Shown here one piece after another: positions 20,234 to 51,181 of a stretch of 64,000 bases of DNA (positions are counted from its first letter, which is position 1; every line of letters starts with the position of its first letter). This DNA is from Pseudactinotalea suaedae (GTDB lineage Bacteria > Actinomycetota > Actinomycetes > Actinomycetales > Beutenbergiaceae): positions 1 to 64,000 of the forward strand of contig NZ_WNXY01000007.1 in assembly GCF_009733815.1 (NCBI RefSeq), written 5' to 3'. The position numbers were made by a program, and so were the translations under genes. The notes under the pieces are model-generated. The model was given only the letters and a program-made list of their open reading frames with translations. It searched no databases and was not told where the DNA came from.

Positions 20234-20248
20234 CAGTAACGACTACCG
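20234..20248 (+). promoter_or_regulatory. CIS-locus dyad site a (CAGTA-ACGAC-TACCG)
   Basis: Variant of CGGTA-N5-TACCG, one mismatch in the left arm, followed by ATGCCC. A -10-like TAGCGT (20273-20278) begins after a 24-base gap. It lies upstream of the lipoprotein and PAAR-like genes. The same dyad occurs upstream of the DUF4157, DUF4255 and sheath genes with the same geometry, so it is read as a binding site for a locus-specific activator at about -44. Confidence 0.65.
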
Positions 20249-20322
20249 ATGCCCGCGACGAGGCCCTCCGAGTAGCGTCGAGGTGGCGGGGATCGCCATG
20301 GAGCAGAAGGGGGCCGGCGCCC

Positions 20323-20820
20323 GTGCCCGGAGCAGACAGCACAGCAGCACGAGCGGCGCTCGCGCTGGTGGCGGCGACGCTGCTGGCGGGTTGCTCGAGC
20401 CTCGACGGCGACACCTCGACGACCTCGGTGTTCGACCTCGAGCCGGGCGTCTGCGTGCTGGCCCCGAGCCACGAGGACGTGGCGGTCGAGCTCTCGGAGG
20501 TGGCCACCGTCCCGTGCGAGGAGCCCCATCAGCTCGAGGTCTTCGCGCTCGTCGACTTCCCCGAGCGCAGCGACACCGACACCGAGCAGGCGGGCAGCAC
20601 CTTCCCGGGTGATGCCCTGCTGAAGGACTTCGCCGACGGCGCGTGCGCCGAGCAGTTCGCGGCCTACGTGGGCGTCGACTACCGGGACTCCGAGCTGTTC
20701 TTCACCTACCTCGTCCCGTCGGCGCGCAGCTGGCAGGCCGAGGACGACCGCACCGTGCTGTGCCTGATCACCACCACCGGCGAGGACCTCAGCCAGTCCG
20801 TGGCCGGCACCGGCTGGTGA
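20323..20820 (+). CDS. Septum_form-domain lipoprotein
   Basis: A 165-residue lipoprotein. The GTG at 20323 (MPGADSTAARAAL) has a strong ribosome-binding site (AGAAGGGGG) and gives a proper signal peptide ending in LAGC (Cys24). The exported domain reads SVFDLEPGVCVLAP, VPCEEPHQLEVFALVDFP, FPGDALL and SELFFTYLVPSARSW, which is the Septum_form family pattern with paired cysteines. Family function is unknown beyond its name. It is followed after 25 bases by the PAAR-like gene and preceded by dyad site a, which ties it to the injection-system locus. A longer in-frame ATG at 20230 lies inside the promoter and is rejected. Confidence 0.8.
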   Translation: MPGADSTAARAALALVAATLLAGCSSLDGDTSTTSVFDLEPGVCVLAPSHEDVAVELSEVATVPCEEPHQLEVFALVDFPERSDTDTEQAGSTFPGDALLKDFADGACAEQFAAYVGVDYRDSELFFTYLVPSARSWQAEDDRTVLCLITTTGEDLSQSVAGTGW

Positions 20821-20845
20821 CGGCGCACCGACGAGAGGAACCACG

Positions 20846-21235
20846 ATGGGCAGACCAGCAGGCGCGACCGGCGGCACGCTGATGTGTCCGTTCGGGGCCG
20901 CGACGTCCGCGGTGGTCGGGCTCGCGTCTCCGACCGTCCTCATCGAGGGCAAGCCGGCCGTGACCATGCGGGACAACCTGCCGATGGCCAACGTGCCCTC
21001 GTTCGGTCTGTGCAGCTCGCCGTCCAACCCCACCGTGGTCGCCGCCACGGCGGCCGCGATGGGGGTGCTGACCCCGATGCCCTGCGTGCCTGTGCTGACA
21101 CCCTGGACCGGTACGGCGACCAGGACCCTCGTCGGAGGGGCACCCGCGCTGGCGGCCGGGTCGATGTGCACCTGCGTCTACGGCGGGGTCATCCAGCTGG
21201 TCAACCCGGGCACGGTCAGGACGATGGTGGGCTGA
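20846..21235 (+). CDS. PAAR-like tip protein (DUF4280)
   Basis: A 129-residue protein with the DUF4280 layout: LMCPFGAATSAV, MANVPSFGLCSSPSNPTV, GVLTPMPCVPVLTPWTG and the final AGSMCTCVYGGVIQLVNPG. This family serves as PAAR-like spike tip, the equivalent of Afp10, capping a VgrG-like spike. Regularly spaced cysteines probably bind metal. The ATG has a GAGAGGAA site. Its 3' end overlaps the convergent YbjN-like gene by 20 bases. It lies about 21 kb from the spike gene it should cap. Confidence 0.88.
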   Translation: MGRPAGATGGTLMCPFGAATSAVVGLASPTVLIEGKPAVTMRDNLPMANVPSFGLCSSPSNPTVVAATAAAMGVLTPMPCVPVLTPWTGTATRTLVGGAPALAAGSMCTCVYGGVIQLVNPGTVRTMVG

Positions 21236-21824
21236 GCCTGGCGTCGAGCGTGGAGAGCTCGGCCGCCAGCGCGTCGAGGTCGGCGCCCCGTGCGCTCGCC
21301 GCTGCGTCCGCCGGGCTCGTCTCGCCCGCGGCGACGGCCTCGATCGCCGCCCGGTAGCGCAGCAGCCGGCTCTCGGCCGCGTCGAGCGCGGTGCCGAGCA
21401 GGCCGCCCAGCACGTCCACGGAGATCTCCACGTCGCCGAGACTGACCGAGCTGCGGGCCGCGAACGTCCCGGACGTCAGGTCGACCTCGAACGCGACGTC
21501 GAACTCGGCGTCGGTCGCCCGCATCGCCAGCTCGACCGCCTGCGGCAGCAGCGGCGGCGGCACCGGCGTGGGGTGCACGGCGTAAAAGCTGACGCTCCGC
21601 GCGATCGGACGCACGACACCCAGCACCCGGCCCACCCACGGGTCGGCGGCGTCGACGTCGACCGTGGCGAGGTCGACGTCGAGCTCGAGGTCGTGCCCGC
21701 TCACCACGAGCGCAACCGCGACGTCCCTCAGGAAGGTGGGCTCGACGCCGTCGAGCTGGGCGTACGCGGCCCTGACGTCGACGGTCGACGCCGTCCCGGG
21801 GGTGCCCTCACCGGCGTCGGTCAC
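21216..21824 (-). CDS. YbjN/type III chaperone-like protein, possible cargo partner
   Basis: A 202-residue acidic protein. Segments such as FLRDVAVALVVSGHDLELDVD, RSVSFYAVHPTPVPPPLLPQAV and FEVDLTSGTFAARSSVSLG, then a helical C-terminus, resemble the YbjN/type III secretion chaperone fold. This is by eye and should be tested. The start is GTG at 21824, overlapping the DUF4157 stop as GTGA, so it is coupled to that putative cargo. A chaperone or loading role is inferred from that coupling. Its 3' end overlaps the PAAR-like gene on the other strand. Confidence 0.55.
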   Translation of the reverse strand: MTDAGEGTPGTASTVDVRAAYAQLDGVEPTFLRDVAVALVVSGHDLELDVDLATVDVDAADPWVGRVLGVVRPIARSVSFYAVHPTPVPPPLLPQAVELAMRATDAEFDVAFEVDLTSGTFAARSSVSLGDVEISVDVLGGLLGTALDAAESRLLRYRAAIEAVAAGETSPADAAASARGADLDALAAELSTLDARLSPPSS

Positions 21825-24800
21825 GGGGCGCCCGCCCCGGCCGGGACGGACGAGCCCGACTTCAGCTTGATCAGGTCGCGGATCAGCTCGATGCCTGCCG
21901 GCGAGTTGCGTCGCGGCTTGCGTGCGAGCTCCGCCTCGAGGTCGGCCAGCGTCAGCTGATCCGTCCAGGCGTCCAGGTCCGCCTGGGACGTGTGGCGTCC
22001 GAGTGCGGTGTCTCCGATGATGGCGATCACTCCCTTGGGCAACGGTTCGACGTCAGCGTAGGCCTGCGTGCGCTCGGTCAGCTTGCCGCGCTTCTCGCTC
22101 GAGAGGAACATCCGCACCCGCCAGCCGAAGCCGCGGTCGGTCTTCGCGTTGTCACCCAGGTGACCCTTGGTGGCGAGGTCGTTGCGCTGCTGGGCGAGCG
22201 TCCCGGTGTCCTTCCACGTGGTGCGTGCCGACGCCACCGTGTCCCCGACGGTCTTGCGGACACCCTTCGCCTGCTCGAGATGGCCCATGATCTCGTCATA
22301 GGTGGTCTTGGGATCCGCGCTGGTGCTCATCGAGCCGAGCACCGCCGTGCGGATCTTGGCCAGCAGGATGCTGTGCTCGCCGCCGCCCTCCTCCGGATCG
22401 CTCCCCGGTCGCACCGACGAGGGGGTGATCTGCTGCACGTACGCCGCGGTGATCCGCTTCCCCTCGACGCGGTAGTGGGACAGGAACTCGAGCGCGACCT
22501 CGTCACCCTGTGCGGCGCGCACGACGATGCCGTCGACCGCCATCTTCGGGTGCTGCTTCAGCTCGTCCTCGGCGGCGCCTTCCAGGTGCAGCAGCTCGGA
22601 CTCCTTCTGAGCGCGCTTGGCCATCGCGGCGAGCACGTTGTCCGCGATGAAGTGCCCGAGCGCGTGCAGGTTGTCGAGCACGGCCTTGCCGGACTTGATG
22701 GCGAGCGGGATGCCGTACCCGCCACCGCTGGCGAGCTGCGCGATCGACAGCACGAGGTCGCCGATCCCGGAACCGAGGGTCCAGCAGTGGTTCTCGAGCT
22801 GCTTGGTGTAGACCTGCGAGACCTTCATCAACGGGTACACCGTGACGTCGACCTTGTCGGTGGAGCGCGCCCGCGCGCCGAACATGCTGACGTCGGTCTC
22901 GCGCTGGCGCATACCCGTCATCGTGACGTCCATCGTCGCCTTGACGATCGACAGCACCGCCGAGGCGATGTCCAGCCCCGGCACGACCTTGGCGACGCCG
23001 GCCGAGACACCGGAGTCGATCAGCTTGGCGAGGTTCGCCGTCTGCTTCGCGGCCCCCACCAGCCCGTCGAGACCGGCAGCTCCCGCCTTGGTGGCCTTCA
23101 GGCCCTCGTAGGCGTCGTTGTTCTCCCACGCCGACTTGATGGACGTCACCATCGCGAAGGCCGACTGCACGGCGCCGAGCAGGCTGGTGAAGATGCCCGC
23201 GACCTGGCCGAAGCCGGTCTTGACCTTGGTCGCGTCCGACATCGGCAGCGCCGCCGGACCGTTGAGCTGGTCCTTCGACTTCCAGTCGTGGGCCTGCCGG
23301 CTGTCCCGGACGGCCTGCGAGATGCCCTGGTCGATCTTCGACGGCAGCACCGGGCCGTAGCTGGTCTTCTCGATGCCCTGCTCCTCGCGGAGCTTCTTGT
23401 CCTGGGGCTTGCCGATCTGGCCGGCGATGCCGCCGCCGACCACGTTGATCGCCGTCATCGCGGCGCCGCCGTAGGTCTGGACGTCCTTGAGCACCGCGCT
23501 GCCCTGGGTCAGGGCGTCGTCCTCCTTCTTCTGGAAGGCGACCGGGGTGGCGTCGAGCTCCTGCTGCTTCTCCGCGCGCTTGTCCTGCGGCAGCAGCATC
23601 AGCGAGGTCTCGATCGAGTCGCGGTCTCGCTGCGCCTGCCGCTGCTTGGCCGCGACGCGCTCGGAGGCCTGCGCCCACGCGGCGACGTCGAGCGCGCCGT
23701 CCTTGGGCGGCATCTGGTCCGCGAGCTTGTCCTCGAGGCTCGCGCGCACGGTGGCTGCTGCCTGGTCCTGCGCCAGCGCGGGATGCAGCGAGGGGTCCTT
23801 CGCCAGCAGCTCCCCGCGCAGCACCGCCATCCGCTCGTAGGCGAGCTCGACGTTCTTGCCGAGCATCCGCAGCTTGATCGTGGCGGTGTCGGCGGAAGTG
23901 TCGTCCTCGAGCTGCTGCTGCCGCACCGCACCATCGGTGCGGACCCGACGCACCTGGATCACCAGCCGCTCCGCGGCGGTCTCACGCGGTGGTCGCACCG
24001 ACTCCAGCGCGCGGTACTTGACGTGCCAGGTCTCGTGATAGGCCTGGTCCGCTGCCTCCTGCTCGCTGAGCGGCTGGCCCCCGGACCGCCGGCTGCGCGG
24101 CAGCAGGAGGGTCTTGAACAGGCCGGTCTCGTAGTCGAGCGCCTCCTGGAACTGCTTGTTGACGGCGGCCATCCGGACGCCGGAGTCGTCGTCACCGCTC
24201 AGACCCGGACGGTAGATGGCGTCGCCCAGGGCGGCGCGGCCGGCCTTGCCCTGCTTGCGGGACTCGCTGAGGTTCTTCTTCTCGGTCTTCTCGGTCTTCT
24301 TGCTCTGCTTGGCGGCAGCCTTGCGCGCCTTCTCCTCGTCCTTGGCGCGCTGCTCCTCGGCCTTCTTCTCCGCCTGCTCGCGCTTCTCCTCCTCGGTCAG
24401 CTCCTCCTTGCCGAAGAGGCGCGTGACGAAGTTCCGCCGGACCGCCCGGGTGCCGGCCGGCTCCGAGATCACGTGCGCGATCTCGTGGGCGAGGATCCCC
24501 TCGGCGGCGGGCCCGCCCGCCGCGGCGCGGGACCCGAGGAACACGTCGTCGCCGACCGTGAACGCCTCGGCCGACATCGCCTGGTTCAGGCGCGAGGCCT
24601 CACCCCCGCGATGCACGCGCACCGACGACAGCGAGGTACCGAAGGCGCTCTCCATCCGGGTGCGCTCGAGGCCGCCCAGCCCGGTTCCGGTGGCCCGGGC
24701 CGCCTCGATCCTGCCCGACAGCGCGCCGTCGACCGCACCGCCCGCGGGCCCGACCGCGGCGCCCGGGAGCGCCACCGGTGTCGAGGACCGCCGCAGGTGC

Positions 24801-25087
24801 CCGCACCCGGCACCGTGGCGATGGGCCTCCGCGCCCTCGTGCGCCTCGGGGCTCGCCTCGGGACCGGGATCCCGGCGCAGGCGTGCCAGCGCGGTGTCGG
24901 CGAGTCGGTCGGCGTGGTGCTCGGCGGGATCGTCCGCACGCCCGACGACCAGTCCGCCCTCGGTGGCGGCGACCCCCGCCAGCGGCACCGGTGCGGCCGG
25001 CGCGGGCGCTGCCGAGGCGGCGTCCTCGTTCCGGACCGCGCGGGTCGTTCCCGCAGGCACGTGTGCCCGGGTCTCGTGCGTGCTCAT
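21821..25087 (-). CDS. DUF4157 protein, putative injection-system cargo
   Basis: A 1088-residue protein. Residues about 145-215 form a DUF4157 domain: AFGTSLSSVRVHRGGEASRL, AEAFTVGDDVFLG and the zinc-protease motif HEIAH at 201-205. A highly charged coiled coil follows (about 228-275), then helical sequence with Gly/Ala-rich hydrophobic stretches near 540-560, 625-650 and 680-720 that could insert into membranes. DUF4157 is a known marker of extracellular contractile injection system effectors. The ATG at 25087 has a GGAGGG site and is preceded by dyad site b; the longer frame enters the promoter. A second HExxH-like string, HETWH at 351-355, is present. Target and activity are unknown. Confidence 0.82.
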   Translation of the reverse strand: MSTHETRAHVPAGTTRAVRNEDAASAAPAPAAPVPLAGVAATEGGLVVGRADDPAEHHADRLADTALARLRRDPGPEASPEAHEGAEAHRHGAGCGHLRRSSTPVALPGAAVGPAGGAVDGALSGRIEAARATGTGLGGLERTRMESAFGTSLSSVRVHRGGEASRLNQAMSAEAFTVGDDVFLGSRAAAGGPAAEGILAHEIAHVISEPAGTRAVRRNFVTRLFGKEELTEEEKREQAEKKAEEQRAKDEEKARKAAAKQSKKTEKTEKKNLSESRKQGKAGRAALGDAIYRPGLSGDDDSGVRMAAVNKQFQEALDYETGLFKTLLLPRSRRSGGQPLSEQEAADQAYHETWHVKYRALESVRPPRETAAERLVIQVRRVRTDGAVRQQQLEDDTSADTATIKLRMLGKNVELAYERMAVLRGELLAKDPSLHPALAQDQAAATVRASLEDKLADQMPPKDGALDVAAWAQASERVAAKQRQAQRDRDSIETSLMLLPQDKRAEKQQELDATPVAFQKKEDDALTQGSAVLKDVQTYGGAAMTAINVVGGGIAGQIGKPQDKKLREEQGIEKTSYGPVLPSKIDQGISQAVRDSRQAHDWKSKDQLNGPAALPMSDATKVKTGFGQVAGIFTSLLGAVQSAFAMVTSIKSAWENNDAYEGLKATKAGAAGLDGLVGAAKQTANLAKLIDSGVSAGVAKVVPGLDIASAVLSIVKATMDVTMTGMRQRETDVSMFGARARSTDKVDVTVYPLMKVSQVYTKQLENHCWTLGSGIGDLVLSIAQLASGGGYGIPLAIKSGKAVLDNLHALGHFIADNVLAAMAKRAQKESELLHLEGAAEDELKQHPKMAVDGIVVRAAQGDEVALEFLSHYRVEGKRITAAYVQQITPSSVRPGSDPEEGGGEHSILLAKIRTAVLGSMSTSADPKTTYDEIMGHLEQAKGVRKTVGDTVASARTTWKDTGTLAQQRNDLATKGHLGDNAKTDRGFGWRVRMFLSSEKRGKLTERTQAYADVEPLPKGVIAIIGDTALGRHTSQADLDAWTDQLTLADLEAELARKPRRNSPAGIELIRDLIKLKSGSSVPAGAGAP

Positions 25088-25177
25088 ACGCCCTCCGTCC
25101 GCCGCCGTGCGCGCAGGGTCTTCCCGACGGCCGACCCCGCTGGTAGCAGCGTGGCGCGCAGGGCCACGCGGGGGCAT

Positions 25178-25192
25178 CGGTAACGGCTACCG
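25178..25192 (-). promoter_or_regulatory. CIS-locus dyad site b (CGGTA-GCCGT-TACCG)
   Basis: Perfect 5-bp arms on the minus strand, embedded in AATCTCGGTA...TTACCGATGCCC. A -10-like CACGCT (25153-25148) follows after a 24-base gap, leading to the DUF4157 gene at 25087. It shares extended flanks (AATCTCGGTA and TTACCGATG) with site d upstream of the sheath gene. Confidence 0.72.
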
Positions 25193-25201
25193 AGATTCGC
25201 C

Positions 25202-27175
25202 TCAGCCGCGGGCGCGGCCGCTGCCCCAGCGCGCGTCGCCGATGCGGCGGCCCAGCTTGGCCATCTCGCGCTCGGACGCCAGCCGCAGGTCGCCCATGCC
25301 CACGGGACGTCGCGCGGCCACCGCGTCGTAGGTCGCCGCGAGCACGATGTTGCGGATGTCTCCGCCGGCGATCTCCAGGGCACCGGAGAGCAGCTCCAGG
25401 TCCACCGGGTCCTCGGGGTCGGTCCCGGGCAGCTGCGCGAGGTGGTGCTCCCACAGCCGCAGCCGTGTCGGCGCGTCCGGGTCGGGGAAGTGCACCATGA
25501 AGTGCAGCCGGCGGGCGAACGCCGGGTCGAGGTTGCCGCGGAGGTTGGTGGCCAGCACCGTGATGCCCTCGAACGCCTCCATCCGCTGCAGCAGGAACGC
25601 GACCTCCTGGTTGGCGTACCGGTCGTGGGCGTCGTTGATCGAGGACCGGCTGCCGAACAGGGCGTCGGCCTCGTCGAAGAACAGCACCGCGTTGAGCGAC
25701 TCCGCGCGGGCGAAGGTCCGCTCGAGGTTCTTCTCGGTCTCGCCGATGTACTTGTCGACGACGGTCGACAGGTCGACCTGGAACAGGTCGGCACCGAGGG
25801 AGTCGGCGACGACGTGCGCGGCGAGGGTCTTGCCCGTGCCGGGGCTGCCGGAGAACAGCGCGCAGATCCCGGTGCCCTTGCCACCCTTGCCCTGCAGGTC
25901 GCCCAGCCCCAGCACCTCGTCCCGGTCCCTGGCCCAGCCGATCAAGCGCTCGACCTCGCGCCGGGTGTGGTCGGGCAGCACCAGGTCGGTCAGCGTCGCC
26001 GGCGAGGTCGCGGCGCCCACGCGCGAGCGGTGGCCGGCGCCGAGCCGTCGCACCGCGTCCCGCACGTCCTCGACCGAGGGCGCCCGGTCCGCGCGCGTCG
26101 CGTCGGAGCGCGCGCGCGCACCGACGAGGTCGATCTCCTCCGGCGTGATCCGCATCGCGAGCACCTCCTCGGCGACACCGGCAGGGCCGACCGCGTGCTG
26201 CCACAGGTCCTCGCGCTCGGCGCGGCTGAGCCGCCCCGCGGGCACGGTCGCGGCCAGCCGGTCCGACCAGTGCGGGTCCCACGGCGTGCGTCCCACCGCC
26301 ACGACCGGCACCACGGCTCGCTCGAGCAGGTCCAGGTGGCCGGCCGCGTGCTGGGCTCCGAGGAGCACCAGGACCGAGCCCTCCAACGACGCCTCCAGAA
26401 CCAGCGCGCGCAGGGTCGGCCGCACCAGCGCCGCGCGGGGGCCCTGGTCGGGCTCCGATCCGTCCGACCCGGTCGCGCCCTCCCCCGGTACCCGGTCCAG
26501 ATCGCCCACCAGGCAGCCGACGCCGAGCTCGCGGCAGGCGGCCACCGCGAGGGCGGCCCCGGCCGTCCCCGCCGGTGCGTGCACCCACACCAGCGGCTCC
26601 CCCGCCTCGAGCGCGGTCGCGACCTGTCGGAACCCCTCCACGTCCACGGCGCGCGGCTGCGCGAGCACGCGGACGACCTCCTCGGGCACCAGGGTGGAAC
26701 CGAGCAGGTGCGCACGCACGCGGTCGGGGAGCCGGAGCCGCCGCGACAGCAGCACGTCGTCGCCCTCGACGGCGATCAGGCCGGTGGCACGCAGCACGCC
26801 GCCGGCGTCGAGCAGCGCGTGGGAGTCGGGGTCGACGGTCCCGGTCGCGGCCGACTCCCAGCCCAGCGCCACGCTCGGCCGCGCCGGACCGGCGTCGCCG
26901 GAGAGGAGGCCTGCGAGGAGGTGGGCGCTGGGGTGGGCCTCCGGCAGCACCGCCACGGCGAGCAGCATCCGCTCGCGGTGCTCGAGCCCGAACCGGTCGC
27001 CCAGCGCCGTCAGTCGGACCTCGAGGGTGCGCAGCACCTCGGCGTCGGCCTGCAGCGCGGCCAGGCTGCTGCGGGCCGCGCCAGCAGGCTCCCAGCCGCC
27101 GGCGCTCTCCCGGCGGTCCACCGCACGTTCCCACGCGGTGAGCACGCCGTCGACGAGGCTGCCGGTCGCGGTCAT
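25202..27175 (-). CDS. AAA+ ATPase of the contractile injection system (Afp15-like)
   Basis: A 657-residue protein with a variable N-terminal half and a C-terminal AAA+ domain. Walker A is GSPGTGKT at 443-450 and Walker B FFDEAD at 499-504; DKYIGETEKNLERTF and the arginine-finger region DPAFARRLHF are also present. The family (Afp15/Pvc15) is found in most such clusters and is thought to remodel or assemble particles. ATG at 27175. It is divergent from the DUF4255 gene and shares the intergenic region with dyad site c, though no convincing -10 lies at the standard distance on this strand. Confidence 0.9.
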   Translation of the reverse strand: MTATGSLVDGVLTAWERAVDRRESAGGWEPAGAARSSLAALQADAEVLRTLEVRLTALGDRFGLEHRERMLLAVAVLPEAHPSAHLLAGLLSGDAGPARPSVALGWESAATGTVDPDSHALLDAGGVLRATGLIAVEGDDVLLSRRLRLPDRVRAHLLGSTLVPEEVVRVLAQPRAVDVEGFRQVATALEAGEPLVWVHAPAGTAGAALAVAACRELGVGCLVGDLDRVPGEGATGSDGSEPDQGPRAALVRPTLRALVLEASLEGSVLVLLGAQHAAGHLDLLERAVVPVVAVGRTPWDPHWSDRLAATVPAGRLSRAEREDLWQHAVGPAGVAEEVLAMRITPEEIDLVGARARSDATRADRAPSVEDVRDAVRRLGAGHRSRVGAATSPATLTDLVLPDHTRREVERLIGWARDRDEVLGLGDLQGKGGKGTGICALFSGSPGTGKTLAAHVVADSLGADLFQVDLSTVVDKYIGETEKNLERTFARAESLNAVLFFDEADALFGSRSSINDAHDRYANQEVAFLLQRMEAFEGITVLATNLRGNLDPAFARRLHFMVHFPDPDAPTRLRLWEHHLAQLPGTDPEDPVDLELLSGALEIAGGDIRNIVLAATYDAVAARRPVGMGDLRLASEREMAKLGRRIGDARWGSGRARG

Positions 27176-27217
27176 GGCTGCACCTTGGCACAGCCGCGGA
27201 GCCTCCTGGAGGAACTT

Positions 27218-27232
27218 CCGTAGCGATTACCG
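27218..27232 (+). promoter_or_regulatory. CIS-locus dyad site c (CCGTA-GCGAT-TACCG)
   Basis: One mismatch in the left arm, followed by ATGC. A -10-like TAGCCT (27256-27261) begins after a 23-base gap and leads to the DUF4255 operon at 27313. Being a dyad, it could also act on the divergent AAA+ gene. Confidence 0.7.
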
Positions 27233-27312
27233 ATGCTCGGTGCCGCACGCGTTCCTAGCCTGAAGCAGCCGCGGACGAGGACGCTCTGGCACGGCGCCGC
27301 AGCAAGGGAGAA

Positions 27313-27882
27313 ATGGTGCTGATCTCTGCAGTCGAGGAAGGCATCGAAGACCTCCTGCGACGCACGCTGCCGCTCAGCCGCGAGCAGGGCGACGTCTCCT
27401 TCGAGGCTCCGTCGACCACGTGGTCGGCGACCGTCAACCGGCTGACGGTCAACGTCTTCCTGTACGGCGTGGCGCGATCACCGCAACCGCCCCGGGTCCA
27501 GGCCCCGCAGCGCACCGACGGGCTCGTGACCCGACGATTCGCGCTGCCGATGGTGCAGCTGACCTATCTCGTGAGCGCGTGGGCGGGCTCGCCGCGCGAC
27601 GAGCACGAGCTGCTCGGCGACGTCTTCCTCCGGTTCCTCACGAACCCGATCATCCCTAGCACCGAGGAGGGTGCGCTGGAGACCGCCGTCCAGCTCGCCG
27701 TCGAGAGCGACGAGCACAACCGCCCTCGGGACGTGTGGAGCGCCGTCGGTGGCCACCTCAAGGCCTCGTTCTGCCTGCAGGCGACCGTCGCTGCCGACGC
27801 CTACCCGTGGGAGACCGCCCCGCCGCTGGTCGACCGCATCAGCGCACGCGCGTTCCCCATCCCGGAGCCTCGCCGCCCATGA
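27313..27882 (+). CDS. DUF4255 tail-terminator/cap protein (Afp16-like)
   Basis: A 189-residue protein matching DUF4255, the cap protein that ends the tube and sheath (Afp16/Pvc16). Visible signatures are AVEEGIEDLLRRTLPL, TVNVFLYGVARSP, RRFALPMVQLTYLVSAWAG and DEHELLGDVFLRFL. The ATG has an AAGGGAGAA site. Its stop overlaps the next gene as ATGA, so the cap is co-translated with the first of three membrane proteins. This is an unusual pairing of a structural CIS gene with envelope proteins. Confidence 0.88.
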   Translation: MVLISAVEEGIEDLLRRTLPLSREQGDVSFEAPSTTWSATVNRLTVNVFLYGVARSPQPPRVQAPQRTDGLVTRRFALPMVQLTYLVSAWAGSPRDEHELLGDVFLRFLTNPIIPSTEEGALETAVQLAVESDEHNRPRDVWSAVGGHLKASFCLQATVAADAYPWETAPPLVDRISARAFPIPEPRRP

Positions 27883-30092
27883 GGGTCGCCAGCACCGTCG
27901 AGCGCGCCGAGATCGCTCCCGGGGAGTCCGGGACGATCCCGCTCGACGTCGTCAACACCAGCGCGGTCATCGACGCGCTGAGCGTGCGGGTGCTCGGCTT
28001 CCCCGCCTCGGCGACCGTGCGCAGCCAGCCCGAGCACCTGACGCTGTTCCCGCAGTCCGAGGGTGCGCTCGAGGTGCACATCGGGCTGCCGGCCACGTTC
28101 CCTGCCGGCACCTATCACGTGACGCTGGTCGTCGAGGGTCGGGCTGCGGGCGCGACCGACGCTTACCACGACCTCGAGGTCGTCGTGCCGCCGCAGCCGG
28201 CGGTGTCGGCGAGCGCCACCCCGTCGGTGGTGCGCGCCCGTGGCCGCGCGCTGTTCACGGTCACGGTCGCGAACGAGGGCAACACCCCGCTCGACCTGGC
28301 GCTGCGCGTGGTCGACACCGACCGCAGCCTGCGGACCACGCTGACGCCCTCGACGCTCTCGGTCCCGATCGGCCGCACCGCGGTGACGACCGTGTCGGCG
28401 CGCGGGCCCCGCCAGCTGCTGGGTGCGGACCGGGACCGGCCGCTGCGTGTGGTGGCCGAGGCCGAGGGCGCCGCCGCCGAGGTGGCGCTCACGCTCAAGC
28501 AGCGCTCGACGTTCGGCCGCGGGCTGATCACCGCGCTGATCCTGCTGGTGATCCTGGCGGCGTGGGCGGTGGCGGTGACCGTGGGGATGCGCGCGGTGCT
28601 GGGCGCCGACCCCGGCACCAAGGTCGCGCCCCCCTCCTTCTTCGCCGCGACCGAGGTCCCCGGCGAGGCCGCGGGGGCGGCTCCCGCGGGCGCGCTGCCG
28701 CGCGACGGCCTGCTGCCCGCCGGCGTCGGCGCGACCATCACCGGAACGGTGCAGGGCGCCGAGGACCCGGTCGGCGTGGGCCGGCTCACGGTCGAGGCGC
28801 TCCGGACGTCGGCCGACGGGCTGGTGCTGGTCTCCTCCGCCGCGACCCAGGCCGACGGCACGTACTCCTTGGCGGGCCTGTTCCCCGGCGAGTACCTGCT
28901 GCGGGTCGCCGCCGACGGCTACGAGACCGTCTGGTACCCCGGCGCGGCCGACTCGGCGGGCGCCACCGGCGTGCAGGCGTCCGCGCAGCAGGTCACCACC
29001 GACATCGACCTCGTCGTGGCCGGGGACCTCGCCACGATCACCGGGATGGTCCACGCCGGAGGTGAGGACGACGTCGTCGTCACCGTGACGGCGGTCCCCG
29101 TCTGGCTCGCCGGCGACGACGCAGCAGCCGCCCCGATGCAGGTGCAGGCGGCCGCCGACGGGAGCTACGCACTGCCCGGTCTCGTCGCGCCCGGCAGGTA
29201 CGACCTCACCTTCGAGGCACCCGGCTACCAGCCGACCACCATCACCGAGCAGGTGCTCGGCGGGCAGCAGCGGCTGGCGCTGGACATCACCCTGGGCGCC
29301 GGGCTCGGTCAGATCGAGGGCACGGTCACCGACGGCTTCGCCGCGCTCGGCGGCGTCGAGGTCTCGACCACGCTCGACGGCGAGGAGATCGTCGTCGGGA
29401 CCCCCACCCAAGGTCGGGTCGGCACCTTCGTGATCCCCAGCCTGCCGACACCGGCCACCTACGTGCTGACCGCCAGCAAGGAGGGCTACGGCACCCAGAC
29501 GGTCGTCGTCGCCCTGGCCGCCGGGGAGTCCAAGAGCGACGTGACGCTGCTGCTGACCGGCGGGGTGGGAACCATCTCCGGTCACGTCGTGGGGACCGAC
29601 GGGCAGGGCGTCGGCGGCGTGACGGTCGTGGCCGGCGGCACCTCCGAGGGGGTCAGCGCGACGAGCCTGACCGCCGGTGACGTCGGTGCCTTCACGCTCA
29701 CCGGCGTGCAGGGCTCGGCCACCGTGACGCTGACCTTCACCAAGGAGGGGTACGCGCCTGCGTCGGTCCCCGTCAGCCTGGCCGAGGGGCCACCGGGCGA
29801 CATCCGGGTCACCCTCAGCACGATGCTCGGTGCGGTCCAGGGCCGCGTCACCGACGGCGGTCAGGGCGTGACGGGGGTCCGCGTCGAGGCCACCGACGGC
29901 AGCACCGTGCACAGCACGGTCTCGACGGCGACCGGGTCCGAGGGTTCCGGCTCCTACCTGATCCCCGACCTCCGGCCGGGCACCTACGCCGTGACGGTCG
30001 TGAGCTCCGGCCGTGTCGTGACGACGGCGATCGTGACCGTGCTGCAGGGCAGCACGGCGCAGGTCGACCTCCCGTTCCCGAGCGGGGGCTGA
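27879..30092 (+). CDS. Membrane-anchored carboxypeptidase-regulatory-like repeat protein 1
   Basis: A 737-residue protein without signal peptide. Residues 1-205 form two Ig-like beta domains (TIPLDVVNTSAVIDALSVRVLG; LFTVTVANEGNTPLDLALRV). A basic KQRSTFGRGL segment precedes one transmembrane helix at about 216-236. Outside lie five carboxypeptidase-regulatory-like units, each with I-x-G-x-V at the start, a GSY/GTF-x-LPGL turn and a GY-x-x hairpin. The positive-inside rule predicts a cytoplasmic N-terminus and external repeats. The start overlaps the DUF4255 stop. Role inferred: docking or guiding particles at the membrane; a fibre-like or adhesin role is the alternative. Confidence 0.85.
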   Translation: MRVASTVERAEIAPGESGTIPLDVVNTSAVIDALSVRVLGFPASATVRSQPEHLTLFPQSEGALEVHIGLPATFPAGTYHVTLVVEGRAAGATDAYHDLEVVVPPQPAVSASATPSVVRARGRALFTVTVANEGNTPLDLALRVVDTDRSLRTTLTPSTLSVPIGRTAVTTVSARGPRQLLGADRDRPLRVVAEAEGAAAEVALTLKQRSTFGRGLITALILLVILAAWAVAVTVGMRAVLGADPGTKVAPPSFFAATEVPGEAAGAAPAGALPRDGLLPAGVGATITGTVQGAEDPVGVGRLTVEALRTSADGLVLVSSAATQADGTYSLAGLFPGEYLLRVAADGYETVWYPGAADSAGATGVQASAQQVTTDIDLVVAGDLATITGMVHAGGEDDVVVTVTAVPVWLAGDDAAAAPMQVQAAADGSYALPGLVAPGRYDLTFEAPGYQPTTITEQVLGGQQRLALDITLGAGLGQIEGTVTDGFAALGGVEVSTTLDGEEIVVGTPTQGRVGTFVIPSLPTPATYVLTASKEGYGTQTVVVALAAGESKSDVTLLLTGGVGTISGHVVGTDGQGVGGVTVVAGGTSEGVSATSLTAGDVGAFTLTGVQGSATVTLTFTKEGYAPASVPVSLAEGPPGDIRVTLSTMLGAVQGRVTDGGQGVTGVRVEATDGSTVHSTVSTATGSEGSGSYLIPDLRPGTYAVTVVSSGRVVTTAIVTVLQGSTAQVDLPFPSGG

Positions 30093-30094
30093 GC

Positions 30095-32620
30095 ATGCAC
30101 GTCGATGTCGCGCCCCGTCGGGTCGCCGTCGTCCCCGGGATGTCGAGCGAGCTCCTGGTCACCGTGACCAACACCAGCGAGGTGATCGGCGGCTACTCGC
30201 TGCGCGTCCTGGGCGTCGACCCCGAGTGGGCAGGGTTCGACCAGCCCGAGCCCCGGCTGTTCCCCGGCGAGTCGACGACGGCGCGCCTGAGCCTGCGGCT
30301 GCCCGACAAGTCCCCCGCGGGCGACCGGGCGCTGTCGATCCAGGTGACCGACCTGCAGAACCCTGCCGACGTGGTCGTCGAGGAGGCGATCCTCGAGATC
30401 CCGGCGGCGCCGCGCAGCTCGATCGAGCTCGATCCGCCGACCCTGACCGGCGGCAGCACGGGCGGCTACACCGCCATCGTGCACAACGAGGGCAACACGA
30501 CCCAGCTGCTGCGCCTGGACGCCGTCGACCCCGAGGCGCGCACCACCTTCACCTTCACGCCGCCGGAGCTGCGGCTGACCCCCGGTTCGAGCGCCGTCGT
30601 GGACCTGACCGTGAAGGCACGGCGACCGCTCGTGGGGGACGCCGCGCTGCGTCCCTTCACCGTGCGGGCCGCGGGTCCGCAGGTCAGGGAGACCGACGGC
30701 CCGCCGGCCGTGGCGGGCATGTTCATCCAGCAGCCGATGTTCTCGCGTGGGTTGCTGGGGCTGATGGGGCTGCTGGTGGCGATCACGGTGTTCGCGACGG
30801 TGATCACGATCGCGCTCAGCTCGATCGTGCAGCGCACCGCCGCCGATCGCGACCTCGCGCTGCAGGTCGCCCAGGCCCGTGAGGCGACGTCGCAGACGGG
30901 ACGTTCGGAGGTCGGCGGCTCGGTCGTCGAGCTGAGCACGGGGGCACCGGCGGCCGGGGTGTCGGTCGAGCTGTTCGCCGCCGACGACCCCGGCACCCCG
31001 CTCACGACCACCGCCACCGACGACGCGGGTGCCTTCACCTTCGCCAGGCTCCCTGCGGGCGAGGTCCTGCTCCGGGTCCGCGGCGCGGGTTTCGCCGAGG
31101 TCTGGTACCCGACCGCCGGCGCCGCCGCCGACGCCACACCGCTGACGCTCGTCGAGGGTCAGAGCCTGGACGACCTCGTGGTCATCGTCGGAGGCGTCCC
31201 GGCCGCTGTCAGCGGGGCCGTGGTCGGCGATGACGTGGGTGGGGCGACGGTCCGGGTCGAGCTGCCGCTGGAGGTCGCACCCCTGGCCGGTCAGGTCGAC
31301 CCGGTCGCGGGCGAGGTGCCGTCGACCACCACGGGCGGTGGCGCGCTCGTGCGGAGCGTGCCGATCAGCGAGGACGGCACGTTCGAGATCGCCGACCTGC
31401 CCTCCCCCGCCGTGTACGACCTCGTCGTCACGAAGCCCGGTTTCGCGCCCTCGGCGCAGCGGCTCGACCTGGCCGCCGGCGAGAGCCGTGACGGCATCGA
31501 GCTGGCGCTGCTGGTGGGTGACGGCTCGATCGAGGGCACCGTCAGCGGTCCCGACGGCCCGATCGGCGGGGCCGGCGTGGTCGCGACCGCGGGCCAGGCC
31601 AGGGTCGAGACCGTGAGCCTGACGCAGGACCCGGTGGGCGGGTTCGTGCTGCGCGGGCTGCCCACGCCGGGCTCCTACACGGTGGTCGTCTCCGCCGACG
31701 GCTACGCGACCGCCACGCTGACGCTCTCGCTCACCCCGGGGCAGCAGCTCACCGGAGTCTCGGTGGTGCTCGGACGCGACCAGGGCACCCTCGGCGGCAC
31801 CGTGACCGTGCCCGGCAGCAGCGCGGGCGGGGTCACCGTGACCGTCTCCGACGGCGCGACCACGCTGCAGACCGTGACGCGCTCGACCGACCCGGTCGGC
31901 TCGTGGGAGCTCTCCGGCCTGCGGGTACCGGGTGACTACACGGTGACGTTCTCGCGGACCGACCTGGAGTCACGCGTGCTGTCGGTCAGCCTCGACGGTT
32001 TCGGCCTGGTCACCGCCGGTGCCGCGAGCGCCACGTCGGTGGACGCGACGATGCGCTCCGCCACCGCCGTGCTCACCGGCCGGGTGACGCAGACCCGTGG
32101 CGAGGGCTCGGCCCAGGCGGTGGGCAACGTCGTCGTCACCATCAGCTCGGGCTCGGTCGAGCGCATCGTGACGACCGCGTCGACACCCTCGGGCGACGTC
32201 GGGGTGTACCGGATCGAGAACCTGCCGCCGGGTACCTACACGGTGACGTTCGCGCGCAGCGGCACCCGCACCACCTCGGAGATCGTGGTGCTGAGCGCCG
32301 CTCAGGTGCGCACGCTCAACCCCGTGCTGGTCGCACCCGCGCGCATCACCGGCGTGGTCACCCAGGGCGGTGAGCCGCTGGCGGGCCGCACCGTGTGGCT
32401 GTACCGGGCGGCTGAGTACGGCACCTCGGCCGCTCCCGTGGCGCAGACCACCACGGACGCCTCCGGCGGCTACGCGCTCGACGACATCGAGGCGCCCGAG
32501 CACTACGTCGTCGAGATCCGCACCACCGGAGGCACCGTCGTCGGCTCCTCGGCGCCGTTCACGCTCGATGCGAGCGAAGACCGCACGGTCGACATCGAGG
32601 TCGGAGAGCAGCCCCAGTGA
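30095..32620 (+). CDS. Membrane-anchored carboxypeptidase-regulatory-like repeat protein 2
   Basis: An 841-residue paralogue of the preceding protein, starting two bases after its stop. The same plan holds: two cytoplasmic Ig-like domains (LLVTVTNTSEVIGGYSLRVLG; YTAIVHNEGNTTQLLRLD), the juxtamembrane PMFSRGLLGL, a transmembrane helix at about 220-243 and six carboxypeptidase-regulatory-like units. The first unit ends FAEVWYPTAG, matching YETVWYPGAA in protein 1. Low cysteine and high Thr/Val/Gly content suit an exported beta-rich stalk. Confidence 0.85.
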   Translation: MHVDVAPRRVAVVPGMSSELLVTVTNTSEVIGGYSLRVLGVDPEWAGFDQPEPRLFPGESTTARLSLRLPDKSPAGDRALSIQVTDLQNPADVVVEEAILEIPAAPRSSIELDPPTLTGGSTGGYTAIVHNEGNTTQLLRLDAVDPEARTTFTFTPPELRLTPGSSAVVDLTVKARRPLVGDAALRPFTVRAAGPQVRETDGPPAVAGMFIQQPMFSRGLLGLMGLLVAITVFATVITIALSSIVQRTAADRDLALQVAQAREATSQTGRSEVGGSVVELSTGAPAAGVSVELFAADDPGTPLTTTATDDAGAFTFARLPAGEVLLRVRGAGFAEVWYPTAGAAADATPLTLVEGQSLDDLVVIVGGVPAAVSGAVVGDDVGGATVRVELPLEVAPLAGQVDPVAGEVPSTTTGGGALVRSVPISEDGTFEIADLPSPAVYDLVVTKPGFAPSAQRLDLAAGESRDGIELALLVGDGSIEGTVSGPDGPIGGAGVVATAGQARVETVSLTQDPVGGFVLRGLPTPGSYTVVVSADGYATATLTLSLTPGQQLTGVSVVLGRDQGTLGGTVTVPGSSAGGVTVTVSDGATTLQTVTRSTDPVGSWELSGLRVPGDYTVTFSRTDLESRVLSVSLDGFGLVTAGAASATSVDATMRSATAVLTGRVTQTRGEGSAQAVGNVVVTISSGSVERIVTTASTPSGDVGVYRIENLPPGTYTVTFARSGTRTTSEIVVLSAAQVRTLNPVLVAPARITGVVTQGGEPLAGRTVWLYRAAEYGTSAAPVAQTTTDASGGYALDDIEAPEHYVVEIRTTGGTVVGSSAPFTLDASEDRTVDIEVGEQPQ

Positions 32621-38430: not shown

Positions 38431-38436
38431 GGCCCG
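38421..38436 (+). terminator. Short hairpin spanning the stop codon of repeat protein 3
   Basis: CGGGCC / GGCCCG stem with a GTAG loop; the TAG stop codon lies in the loop. No U-tract. It lies between two convergent operons, so it may end transcription or only be a by-product of GC-rich sequence. Confidence 0.3.
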
Positions 38437-38470
38437 CGGGCGGACGCGACCGACGAGCGTGGTGCCGGGG

Positions 38471-41938: not shown

Positions 41939-41949
41939 CGTGGTCCCCC

Positions 41950-48337: not shown

Positions 48338-48343
48338 CCCCGA

Positions 48344-48838
48344 TCACCTGATCTCGGCCGGGATCTCCTCGATCGCCGACCGTCGGGCCCGACTGAACGA
48401 GCCCTGCTCGGGAACGGGGTCGAGCCGAGGAGTGCTCTCGAACCCGTCGCTCTCCTCGGCCGCCGGCGCAGGCTGCGCCGGGACCGCCGCGGGAGCGGGC
48501 GTCTCGACCTGCTGGGCCGCGACGAACTCCTGGAACTCCGCCTCGGTGCCGAAGTTGATGACACCGTAGAAGTCCTGCAGGTACGCCAGGTCCGCCGCGA
48601 ACAGCCCCTCGATCTCGTGCGGTGTCACCAGGGTCAACGACCCCAGCGACGTGACCACCCGCGCCAGCACCACGATCGTCAGCCGCGGGTCGTCCGGGCC
48701 GGAGATCGTGGGGTCGCGCAGCGGCTCCAGCTCGTCGCGTGCCGTCGCGAGTCGCATGATGCCGGTGCGGTGGACCGCCCCGTGGTCGTCGACGTAGCCG
48801 CGCGGGAGCGTGAAGTCGTAGGTGGTCCGGAGACTCAC
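48344..48838 (-). CDS. Phage tail assembly-like protein of eCIS
   Basis: A 164-residue protein with FTLPRGYVDDHGAVHRTGIMRLATARDELEPLRDP and TLVTPHEIEGLFAADLAYLQDFYGVIN, the pattern of the small assembly protein encoded between tube and DUF6760 genes in actinobacterial injection systems. An Ala/Pro-rich tail of about 45 residues follows. GTG at 48838 overlaps the tube stop as GTGA. With the DUF6760 protein it takes the place of the gpG/gpGT assembly chaperones of phage tails (inference). Confidence 0.8.
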   Translation of the reverse strand: MSLRTTYDFTLPRGYVDDHGAVHRTGIMRLATARDELEPLRDPTISGPDDPRLTIVVLARVVTSLGSLTLVTPHEIEGLFAADLAYLQDFYGVINFGTEAEFQEFVAAQQVETPAPAAVPAQPAPAAEESDGFESTPRLDPVPEQGSFSRARRSAIEEIPAEIR

Positions 48839-49308
48839 TTGATCCGCTCGAGCCGCTCGATGACGATGGTGATCGTCTCCTTCAACGCGTCGGCGCCGTC
48901 GACCGAGAGCTGGTCGGTGGAGATCTTGCTCGGCCAGCCGTTGAAGAAGTTGAAGCGAGCGACCTCCTTCTGAGCGGCGTCGTACAGCACGACCGAACCG
49001 TTCTTGCGGTTCTTGGCGCGGTCGCCCGCGAGCCCGCCCTCACGGACGGCCTTGAACCACTTCCAGAGCTCGTCCGCGGTGATGTCGGCGGGTGCCACGC
49101 GGGTGAGCGACAGGTCGGGGACCTCGACGGTCTGGCCGAGGAACTTGACCTGCTGCTTCTGGCCGTTGGCACCGAGCTGGGTGGACTTGCTGACACCCAC
49201 CTCGACGTCGAGGCCGGAGACGGTCATGAGGGCGGAGACGACCTTGCCGTCGATCTCCAGGAAGAAGTTCTGCGTGATGATCGGGTCGGCGGTGAACAGG
49301 CCAGCCAT
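48835..49308 (-). CDS. Main tail-tube protein (gp19 family, Afp1-like)
   Basis: A 157-residue inner-tube protein: FTADPIITQNFFLEIDGKVVSALMTVSGLDVEVGVS at the start and KEVARFNFFNGWPSKISTDQLSVDGADALKETITIVIERLERI at the end, both typical of T4 gp19-like tube subunits that stack as hexamers. The ATG has an AAGGAG site six bases upstream, the best in the operon, as expected for an abundant subunit. It lies 67 bases after the sheath gene. Confidence 0.93.
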   Translation of the reverse strand: MAGLFTADPIITQNFFLEIDGKVVSALMTVSGLDVEVGVSKSTQLGANGQKQQVKFLGQTVEVPDLSLTRVAPADITADELWKWFKAVREGGLAGDRAKNRKNGSVVLYDAAQKEVARFNFFNGWPSKISTDQLSVDGADALKETITIVIERLERIK

Positions 49309-49375
49309 GGGGTGCTCCTTGTGTGGTTCGAGACGTGGGGTTTGTCGCTGGTGCGGCTGATCGGCGGCAGCGTGA

Positions 49376-50941
49376 TCAGGCGGCGCTCAGCTTGTTCTGG
49401 CTGACACGGAAGATGACGAACTCAGCAGGCTTGACCGGCGCGAGACCGACCTCGACGACGAGCTTGCCCGCGTCGATCGACTCCGGCGGGTTGGTGCTCT
49501 CGTCGCACCGCACGAAGTACGCCTGGTCGGGGGTCGAGCCGAACAGCGCGCCCTCCTGCCAGAGCCCGTGAAGGAACCCGGTCAGCGTGCGCTTGACGCC
49601 CTCCCACAGCGTGACGTCGTTCGGCTCGAACACCGCCCACTGGGTGCCCTCGAGGATGGTCGCCTCGACCATGTTGAACAGGCGACGCACGTTGAGGTAG
49701 CGCCAGTCGGTGTCGGAGGCGAGCGTGCGTGCGCCCCAGATCCGGATGCCGCGGGTGCCGAACGGACGGATCGCGTTGATGCCGATCGGGTTGAGGACCG
49801 ACTGCTCGTTCTGGGTGATCGAGCGCTCGACGTCGAGGACGCCACGGATGGTGTCGTTGGCCGGCGCCTTCCAGACCCCGCGGGAGTCGTCGGTGCGGGC
49901 CCACACGCCGGCGACGTGGCCGGACGGCGGGATCAGCAGCTCGGCGGTGCCGTTGGTCCCGGTCGGGTTCTCGACCTTGATCCACGGGTAGTACAGCGCG
50001 GCGAAGGCGGAGTCGTACTGGGCCACCTCGGCGCGCCAGTCCCGCATCTCCTGCGGCGAGAGCCCGGGGGGCGAGTCGAGCAGCGCCATGCGGTTGGAGT
50101 GCTGCTCGCAGTGCGCGATCAGCGCCGTCTGCACGGCCTTCCACATGCCGAGGTCGAGCGAGCCGTCAGCCTTGGTGGCTGCGGTGACGAGGTCGGGCAC
50201 GGCCACGATCGTGACGTCCTCGGCCAGCGCGAGGCCGTTGATGCCGCTCCGTGCGGCCTCGGAGCCGGCGAACTTGCGCCCGGTCACGGGCACCGGGACC
50301 GGTGCCGCCTTCTCCAGCGGGTACAGGCCCGGCTTCAACAGCTCGAGCTGCTCCTCGATCGAGACGGCGTCGTCGATCTCGACGGCCACCTTCACCTTGG
50401 TGGAGCCGTCGTTGACGATCGTCGCCGCGTCGCGCTTGCCGCCGAAGCCGAGGTTGGTGAAGGTCTCGACGACCTCGCCGTTCTCCAGCACCGTGAGGTT
50501 GAAGGGGGTCGGACCCTCGAGGTCGTCGGGAGCGTCCGTGCTCTCGATGGCGATGGTGATGTCGGCGTCGGGCTCCGTGGACTCGACCAGCAGCGGCATG
50601 CCGAGCGCACGGTCGGCGGCCGGCAGCGCCAGCTTCGCCGGCTCCCCTGAGGGCTCCGCGTTCGGCACCCGCACGATGTAGGCGAGCGAGCCCCCGTTGA
50701 GGAAGTACCCGTAGACCGAGAGGGGCAGCATCGCGCCCTCGACGAAGCCGCCGTAGAGGCTCTCGAACTGGGACCAGCTGGTGACGAGCCGAGGAGCGAG
50801 GCCCTGCGGGTCGTTCTCGTCGGTCGGCGCCGTCGCGGTGAATCCGACGAACGCGGTCACCGCCGTCGGTGCAGCGGTCAGGACCTTCTGTGACGACGGG
50901 ATCTCTTCGACGTAGACGCCGGGCGCGGTGTAGGTGGGCAC
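49376..50941 (-). CDS. Contractile tail sheath protein
   Basis: A 521-residue sheath protein: YTAPGVYVEEIPSSQKVLTAAPTAVTAFVGFTATAP at the N-terminus; the C-terminal conserved half includes HSNRMALLDSPPGLSPQEMRDWR, YYPWIKVENP, PPSGHVAGVWARTDDSRGVWKAPAND, GIRIWGARTLASDTDWRYLNVRRLFN and the donor-strand end VVEVGLAPVKPAEFVIFRVSQ. It contracts to drive the tube. Only one sheath gene is present, whereas Afp/PVC have three. The GTG at 50941 has an AAGGA site. It is the first gene of the twelve-gene structural operon, with dyad site d upstream. Confidence 0.95.
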   Translation of the reverse strand: MPTYTAPGVYVEEIPSSQKVLTAAPTAVTAFVGFTATAPTDENDPQGLAPRLVTSWSQFESLYGGFVEGAMLPLSVYGYFLNGGSLAYIVRVPNAEPSGEPAKLALPAADRALGMPLLVESTEPDADITIAIESTDAPDDLEGPTPFNLTVLENGEVVETFTNLGFGGKRDAATIVNDGSTKVKVAVEIDDAVSIEEQLELLKPGLYPLEKAAPVPVPVTGRKFAGSEAARSGINGLALAEDVTIVAVPDLVTAATKADGSLDLGMWKAVQTALIAHCEQHSNRMALLDSPPGLSPQEMRDWRAEVAQYDSAFAALYYPWIKVENPTGTNGTAELLIPPSGHVAGVWARTDDSRGVWKAPANDTIRGVLDVERSITQNEQSVLNPIGINAIRPFGTRGIRIWGARTLASDTDWRYLNVRRLFNMVEATILEGTQWAVFEPNDVTLWEGVKRTLTGFLHGLWQEGALFGSTPDQAYFVRCDESTNPPESIDAGKLVVEVGLAPVKPAEFVIFRVSQNKLSAA

Positions 50942-51035
50942 TGGTCATCCTTCTCTGGGGCGAACCGGCTTGCGAACGGCCCCGGTTCTCGACTGCGGCC
51001 GGAGCTGGCGGATCCTGCAGGACCCGCTCCGGGTC

Positions 51036-51041
51036 AGCGTA
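51036..51041 (-). promoter_or_regulatory. -10 element of the sheath operon
   Basis: TACGCT on the minus strand, beginning 24 bases after dyad site d. Transcription would start near 51029, giving a leader of roughly 90 bases before the sheath GTG. Confidence 0.5.
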
Positions 51042-51065
51042 GGAACGGCGCCATGAACACCTCAT

Positions 51066-51080
51066 CGGTAATCGGTACCG
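51066..51080 (-). promoter_or_regulatory. CIS-locus dyad site d (CGGTA-CCGAT-TACCG)
   Basis: Perfect 5-bp arms on the minus strand in the context AATCTCGGTA...TTACCGATGAG. It sits at the standard distance from a -10 hexamer for the sheath operon. The flanks match site b (DUF4157) on both sides. Confidence 0.72.
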
Positions 51081-51166
51081 AGATTTCTCGCAGGCCCTCG
51101 GCGTGCTCCTGAAGGCATTCCAGGACGGCCGTCAGGACCGCTCGCGCGGGTGTGGACGACCTGTCT

Positions 51167-51181
51167 AGGTAATTACTACGG
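51167..51181 (-). promoter_or_regulatory. CIS-locus dyad site e (CCGTA-GTAAT-TACCT), weaker
   Basis: On the minus strand the flank GGAACCTCCGTAG...ATTACC closely follows site c (GGAACTTCCGTAG...ATTACC), but the right arm has one mismatch and no good -10 lies at 24 bases. It lies about 111 bases upstream of the LuxR1 start, so it could be an autoregulatory site for the regulators or an auxiliary site for the sheath promoter. Confidence 0.45.

Follow-up and report, generated by a model that had tools for sequence, protein, structure and literature searches.

The window analysed here, 64,000 nucleotides from the start of contig NZ_WNXY01000007.1 of Pseudactinotalea suaedae, contains genes for a sheath, a tube, a hub/spike protein, a baseplate J protein, an AAA ATPase, Pvc16 and an eCIS_core protein, which together mark a locus for an extracellular contractile injection system (eCIS). 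Four transcription units of this locus, on both strands, are each preceded by a copy of the same short dyad: a lipoprotein-PAAR unit (a), a DUF4157 unit (b), a Pvc16 unit (c), and the sheath operon (d), which also carries the tube, hub and baseplate genes. Two genes for large LuxR-type regulators, LuxR1 and LuxR2, lie divergent from the sheath gene. The dyad, which is the subject of this work, had been noted in a first-pass annotation of the sequence as the 15-mer CGGTA-N5-TACCG at five intergenic sites, four of them said to point at separate transcription units of one regulon. All five sites are where it had placed them, with one mismatch to the 15-mer at 20234 (site a), none at 25178 (site b), one at 27218 (site c), none at 51066 (site d), and two at 51167 (site e), and each of the first four indeed precedes a unit of its own (Table 1).

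Table 1. Sites, predicted promoter elements and genes of the eCIS locus (window positions), with sites of the same build in family f38 (locus:position).
Feature	Position	Strand	Remarks
Site a, ATGT-CAGTA-ACGAC-TACCGATG	20230..20251	+	Putative operator, lipoprotein-PAAR unit; kept in G014, G016, G019
Site b, ATCT-CGGTA-GCCGT-TACCGATG	25175..25196	-	Putative operator; conserved in relatives
Site c, ACTT-CCGTA-GCGAT-TACCGATG	27214..27235	+	Putative operator; found in 10/10 genomes
Site d, ATCT-CGGTA-CCGAT-TACCGATG	51063..51084	-	Putative operator; counterpart in 25/25 LuxR-bearing named loci
Site e	51164..51187	-	Weak second site, ~101 bp upstream of d
Promoter a, predicted -10 TAGCGT	20273..20278	+	21 nt after site
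Promoter b, predicted weak -10 CACGCT	25148..25153	-	21 nt after site
Promoter c, predicted -10 TAGCCT	27256..27261	+	20 nt after site
Promoter d, predicted -10 TACGCT	51036..51041	-	21 nt after site
LuxR1	51292..53871	+	859-aa LAL-type regulator; P-loop GGAGVGKT; C-terminal GerE helix-turn-helix with RTVDSHL
LuxR2	53858..56482	+	874-aa tandem paralogue; P-loop GEAGIGKT; same RTVDSHL
Lipoprotein gene	20323..20820	+	Unit a; lipobox LLAGC; Septum_form domain; likely GTG start
PAAR-like / DUF4280 gene	20846..21235	+	Unit a
202-aa protein of unknown family	21216..21824	-	Second gene of unit b
DUF4157 / eCIS_core protein	21821..25087	-	First gene of unit b; GGAGGG upstream of start
AAA ATPase	25202..27175	-	Variant winged-helix domain; lies between sites b and c
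Pvc16_N (DUF4255) gene	27313..27882	+	First gene of unit c
Three large CarboxypepD_reg-repeat proteins	27735..38430	+	Unit c; 785, 841, 1937 aa as longest open reading frames
Sheath gene	49376..50941	-	First gene of unit d
f38 sites with -10, then conserved stretch	L282:14387, L284:13419, L287:6522, L288:12363, L293:2833		

With up to two mismatches allowed, the 15-mer matched 33 times in the window against 18.7 expected (none of 100 shuffles reached 33), and of its four exact copies in the genome, two lie outside the locus and look like coding sequence by eye (C15:92233 and C16:131612). These loose 15-mer statistics were set aside as too permissive. Read in one orientation, sites a to d are all preceded by ANNT and followed by ATG, which allowed longer forms to be searched. 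Whole-genome searches were carried out by pattern matching, while a scoring matrix was applied to the window, to loci, and to selected stretches. In the 4.54-Mb genome (4,539,704 bases), the 18-mer CNGTANCGATTACCGATG with up to two mismatches matched sites a to d and nothing more; at three mismatches 25 further matches appeared, giving 29 in all versus 12 for the reversed control. The 22-mer ANNTNNGTANNNNNTACCGATG, the extended form ANNTNNGTA-N5-TACCGATG of the motif, had sites a to d as its only perfect matches; a single mismatch added nothing, and two mismatches added eight places (reversed control, 3). The sharing of a motif among these promoters is thus stronger than the first-pass annotation had stated, and the motif in its extended form is confined to the locus; it is not common upstream of unrelated genes, which by the annotation's own criterion would have refuted its proposal.

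Conservation was examined in 24 genomes of the window's family (Ruaniaceae), 396 of the order, and 394 of the class. Within the family, the 18-mer at up to two mismatches gave 23 matches in 12 of the 24 genomes versus 9 control matches; because the pattern is unspecific at this level, only matches with at most one mismatch were taken as evidence. Such matches were present in five genomes (G000, G013, G014, G016, and G019), four of which carry the LuxR pair, the exception being G013. Sheath matches were found in 14 of the 24, while identity of at least 87% to the window's sheath was seen only in the four genomes with the LuxR pair. Sites a to d are kept at the corresponding promoters of G014, G016, and G019, so that, counting the window's own, all four Ruaniaceae genomes with this kind of sheath have them, with 80-100% identity over the motif versus 44-59% in the rest of the aligned promoter.

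In the order, 23 of the 396 genomes had a match with at most one mismatch (32 matches; reversed control, 7). All ten genomes with a sheath at least 74% identical to that of the window, four Ruaniaceae and six of family f9 (Cellulomonas kin), were among these 23; of the other 13, 12 had no sheath match at E 1e-8, and the thirteenth was G013. In f9 the site precedes the sheath gene in 6/6 genomes and the Pvc16 gene in 6/6, so that sites c and d are found in ten of ten genomes of the two families. Site b was found in each of the four f9 genomes, out of six, in whose stretches a DUF4157 gene was found (in G218 it was assigned by its place between the ATPase and DUF4157 matches). The two families also predict each other: in 14 stretches from f9, the 16 f9 sites took the top ranks with a matrix trained on Ruaniaceae sites, f9 being held out. 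Conversely, with a matrix trained on f9 sites alone, only sites a, b, c, and d and then site e (19.5) scored at least 6 in the window. With the sites kept at the same promoters of relatives, as the proposal demanded, we regard them as almost certainly a genuine shared operator.

Site e had been called the weaker one, and this was borne out by its two mismatches and lower matrix score. Its score of 18.5 exceeds the maximum of 15.7 in one random 4.5-Mb sequence. In genomes of the order that lack a sheath, however, twelve matches at no more than one mismatch scored from 11.1 to 24.8, and because chance matches across the order reach 24.8, a score like that of site e is no proof alone. No -10 lies at the usual distance from site e, and no counterpart was found at a score of at least 8 in the three Ruaniaceae relatives (G014, G016, and G019). 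Judged from these relatives, site e is a lineage-specific putative site.

LuxR1 and LuxR2 are of the large ATP-binding (LAL) type of LuxR regulator; proteins of this type are about 800-1000 amino acids long with a middle part of helical repeats. Both end in a GerE domain (Pfam, 1.8e-11 and 3e-13) and carry the P-loop GxxGxGKT at residues 36-43 and 56-63, respectively, of which G36, G39, G41, and K42 are invariant in 24 aligned rows. Their middle parts gave no Pfam match, only weak profile matches to pentatricopeptide-type solenoids, while one homologue from family f38 (see below) had a weak TPR_7 match there. The GerE recognition helix, RTVDSHL, was found in all aligned relatives as well, apart from one RTIDSHL and one truncated reading, and was the best conserved segment measured (0.89 versus 0.52 for the whole protein). 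In the genome itself, no other helix of the RTVDSHL type was seen in 30 of 36 GerE matches, a partial test, since the wrong strand was read for about a dozen of them, and no site scoring at least 8 was found in these 30 short loci. LuxR genes are adjacent and divergent to the sheath gene in all ten genomes. The Ruaniaceae loci hold a tandem LAL pair (51292-56482 in the window) and the f9 loci one regulator; since both copies keep the same recognition helix, a LuxR1/LuxR2 heterodimer is possible.

The association of regulator and site was followed in 60 named loci, which were found by sheath alignment; a LuxR query to the named genomes had returned no relatives. A site lies within 700 bp upstream of the sheath gene in 25/25 of these loci with an adjacent large LuxR gene and in 0/35 without one (best score there, 2.7). 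The 60 include L196, whose 86 bp upstream of the sheath gene are too short for a site to be seen. Also among them are L180 and L181, which come from one metagenome-assembled genome, L180 and L190, which hold part of the LuxR gene only, and L226 and L234, which hold part of the sheath gene; the matrix test partly overlaps its training, as L176, L183, and L227 appear to match the training genomes G019, G080, and G171. In 18 further eCIS loci, examined over stretches of 17-40 kb, neither a LuxR match nor a site scoring above 10.7 was found; their sheaths are 46-50% (13 loci) or 54-71% (five loci, family f15; G136 is also among the 60) identical. A sheath tree was built without L226, L234, and L225, the reading of which contains a stop. 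All rows with a LuxR gene fall into a single clade of 26 (98/88), suggesting that regulator and motif were gained together once.

The promoters share a fixed geometry. A TANNNT hexamer starts 20-21 nt past the motif in 24/24 sites of types a, c, and d from both families, while b-type sites, at the promoter of the DUF4157 unit, have a weaker -10 of the form NANNNT in 8/8. The named sheath promoters have TANNNT at this distance in 25/25 cases, versus 48/100,000 random positions in the same loci. On the LuxR side of site d it was present in 0/25 loci, and a bidirectional promoter was rejected. Alignment of 32 sites gave the consensus RANNT-SSGTA-GCGAY-TACCGATG, with T(-1), G2, T3, and A4 and, in the right arm, T10, C12, G14, A15, and G17 invariant. 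The core can be read as a dyad of 17 bp, TNNGTA-N5-TACNNA, and some sites are perfect 8-5-8 palindromes, CATCGGTA-GCGAT-TACCGATG. The same alignment shows no conserved -35 sequence, either within the site or next to it.

A constant distance to the -10 could also mean that the block is no regulator site but a -35 element read by an alternative sigma factor. This seems extremely unlikely to us, as 20-21 nt from block to -10 is too long for a -35/-10 pair, usually spaced by about 16-19 nt, conservation extends through both arms over 17-22 bp, and TANNNT is an ordinary -10. Placing the start of the -10 at -12 would put the operator axis at -43/-44. With these predicted start sites, the promoters look as expected under class II activation, in which the operator is centred between about -41 and -44 and a -10 is present but a -35 consensus is not. 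The promoter-proximal arm would then overlap the -35 position, where a bound LuxR protein might instead repress the promoters by covering it. We consider repression very unlikely: since no -35 consensus is conserved at the site, the promoters suit dependence on an activator, and in S. lividans particle formation requires a LuxR-type gene, slpR, the deletion of which is reported to leave no particles (PMC8505568).

Within the units, the better gene starts lie about 70-125 nt downstream of the sites (DUF4157 at 25087, sheath at 50941, and lipoprotein at 20323); because the motif ends in ATG, the open reading frames that start inside sites b and d are by-products. Two labels of the first-pass annotation were not confirmed. 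The 202-aa protein it called YbjN gave no Pfam or NCBIfam match, and its "membrane proteins" behind the DUF4255/Pvc16 gene are the CarboxypepD_reg-repeat proteins, in which a simple hydropathy scan showed isolated borderline peaks only. Its inclusion of the lipoprotein found support in the LuxR-less loci, in which the 3.2 kb or so upstream of the sheath gene hold, on its strand, a lipoprotein gene (29/35) and a PAAR gene (33/35) (L196-L235). Being kept near the sheath in these loci, the lipoprotein seems to belong regularly to eCIS of this group. We take the AAA ATPase, by its context, to be Pvc15-like. ABC (ATP-binding cassette) transporter genes, encoding two BPD_transp_1 permeases and an ATPase with a CBS domain, directly flank the eCIS locus at 17460-20128.

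A second context for the site came from a search with LuxR1 in the 394 genomes of the class, which gave matches in 15: the genome itself, 12 of family f38, and two others. The f38 regulators are 31-34% identical to LuxR1, and all 12 loci have a similarly built site that points away from the regulator gene and is followed 20-21 nt on by TANNNT, in most of them with the site as AATTTRCGTA-N5-TACGGATG; the two other distant homologues (G514 and G088) lack a site. In stretches of five of the 12 genomes, there was no match to the sheath, PAAR, eCIS_core, ATPase, or Pvc16 queries. Because 12/12 f38 regulators face a like site, the regulator family is tied to the site outside an injection locus as well. 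The possibility that the f38 regulators correspond to Streptomyces SlpR was dropped, as these five stretches held no eCIS match. Downstream of the f38 sites, an alignment of five genomes showed about 200 nt of conserved sequence with no shared open reading frame, which makes this stretch a candidate regulated small RNA. Against Rfam, the f38 stretch of G512 had no match even with E values of up to 1 allowed, five f38 stretches had only four thiamine pyrophosphate (TPP) riboswitches elsewhere, and the window had nothing at gathering level.

It seems quite likely to us that the site is bound by the LAL regulator adjoining the sheath gene, and that this regulator activates the entire locus. A single regulon spanning both strands, as first proposed, is well supported as far as sequence can carry it, by the confinement of the motif, its conservation, and its co-occurrence with the LuxR gene, and the injection machine very probably has one dedicated switch. 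LuxR1 and LuxR2, in response to a presumed signal, would bind the 17-bp dyad within ANNTNNGTANNNNNTACCGATG, most likely as a dimer, with the promoter-proximal half-site overlapping the place of the missing -35 element. The bound regulator would then recruit the housekeeping polymerase to the TANNNT -10, such that the lipoprotein-PAAR unit, the DUF4157 unit, the Pvc16 unit, and the sheath operon would be turned on together.

Several observations weigh against this picture, in whole or in part. Given a single gain on the sheath tree, 25/25 versus 0/35 counts as one event, reflecting retention rather than repeated invention, and the comparison of regulators across loci covered LuxR genes only. 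Furthermore, G013, a genome of the window's genus, has a site scoring 32.7 (L069:13582-13605, minus strand) some 70 bp upstream of where a lone DUF4157/eCIS_core gene probably starts, and no LuxR gene beside it; no LuxR2 relative was found in this genome at E 1e-30, nor a full related sheath, its sheath match being partial, 53% identical, and on another contig. The site of G013 may be a relic or a distant member of the regulon. These three points would fit a true eCIS operator bound by another, unlinked regulator, with the adjacent LuxR genes as mere neighbours. We hold this to be unlikely, because the confinement of the operator to the locus indicates a locus-specific regulator, and because the related f38 LuxR genes face a matching site in every case, with no eCIS gene in the five examined at length.

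Control of the locus by its own LAL regulator would also leave some genes less well accounted for. No strong operator points towards the AAA ATPase gene in the window, the best reverse score at site c being 7.1. At the lipoprotein promoter of f9, only degenerate sites were found, with TANNNT at 20-21 nt: their scores are 22.5 in G080, 13.3 in G373, and 11.3 in G355 with the Ruaniaceae matrix, and 15.0 in G171 with the full matrix, and none in G207 or G218 was convincing. As these scores overlap chance, the assignment at this promoter is a putative one that rests on position.

The form of binding can be questioned as well. On average, sites match the dyad (out of 6 positions) and a 7-bp direct repeat (out of 7) at 5.00/5.00 positions for type a, 4.57/4.14 for b, 5.40/5.40 for c, and 5.30/6.10 for d, so for types a, c, and d the direct repeat and the dyad appear to fit about equally well. 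MalT-like regulators use direct repeats, and a LAL oligomer on tandem repeats of the form TASCGAT-TACCGAT, rather than a dimer on the dyad, would agree with the high match of the sheath-promoter sites. It is nonetheless rather improbable in our view: TNNGTA and TACNNA are nearly invariant in both arms, and the inverted arms are better kept in the Ruaniaceae b sites and in the f38 sites, the only ones that clearly favour the dyad (4.83 of 6 versus 3.08 of 7).

A wider idea is more tentative, and we give it somewhat less than even weight: LAL regulator and operator may form a portable pair, which on one acquisition by an eCIS locus placed four promoters under one regulator, which in f38 drives a conserved, apparently non-coding transcript, and whose operator marks further members elsewhere in a genome, the lone DUF4157 gene of G013 being an example. 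For the eCIS itself, the regulon becomes directly testable through an operator of defined length (22 bp) and fixed promoter geometry. The operator serves as an independent criterion of membership, by which the Septum_form-type lipoprotein and the CarboxypepD_reg proteins fall into one regulon with the rest, and genomes can be searched with it for members not linked to the locus. In addition, a single gain of a regulator together with operators at several promoters in one clade offers a clean case of a change in control of a whole locus.

In class II activation by LuxR-type proteins, a GerE-type dimer sits on a lux-box dyad near -42.5 that overlaps the -35. The present site resembles the lux box as a probable dyad that would overlap the -35 position, and differs from it in sequence, spacer, and the sensor domain of the regulator. 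A LAL-family protein reported to bind palindromes is SCO6993, which is 606 aa long, has footprinted palindromic sites and is described as a repressor of antibiotic genes (PMC9628970); its two target sites reportedly share no homology and, as printed, are unlike the site described here.

Closer in function are the GerE genes that adjoin 25.8% of eCIS loci, the signals of which were described as unknown (Geller et al. 2021, PMC8213781), an adjacency that is repeated in a 2026 review (PMC12961389). The likeness is that of a LuxR-type DNA-binding regulator next to an eCIS locus; while the text consulted of PMC8213781 gives adjacency only and no binding site, the present locus adds a site, its place in four promoters, and a link to one LAL subgroup. 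SlpR / SCO4263 of the Streptomyces phage tail-like particles, compared here by description only, is likewise a LuxR-type regulator of an actinobacterial contractile injection locus, and four eCIS promoters of S. coelicolor share one temporal pattern (PMC10020575). Unlike for the present locus, no operator is given for it in the text seen of PMC8505568 and PMC10020575, nor was an operator for any eCIS regulator found in the literature searched, which lay mostly outside subscription papers. A cluster-situated LuxR regulator with a conserved operator is therefore a known kind of system, while the operator described here is, as far as searched, new.

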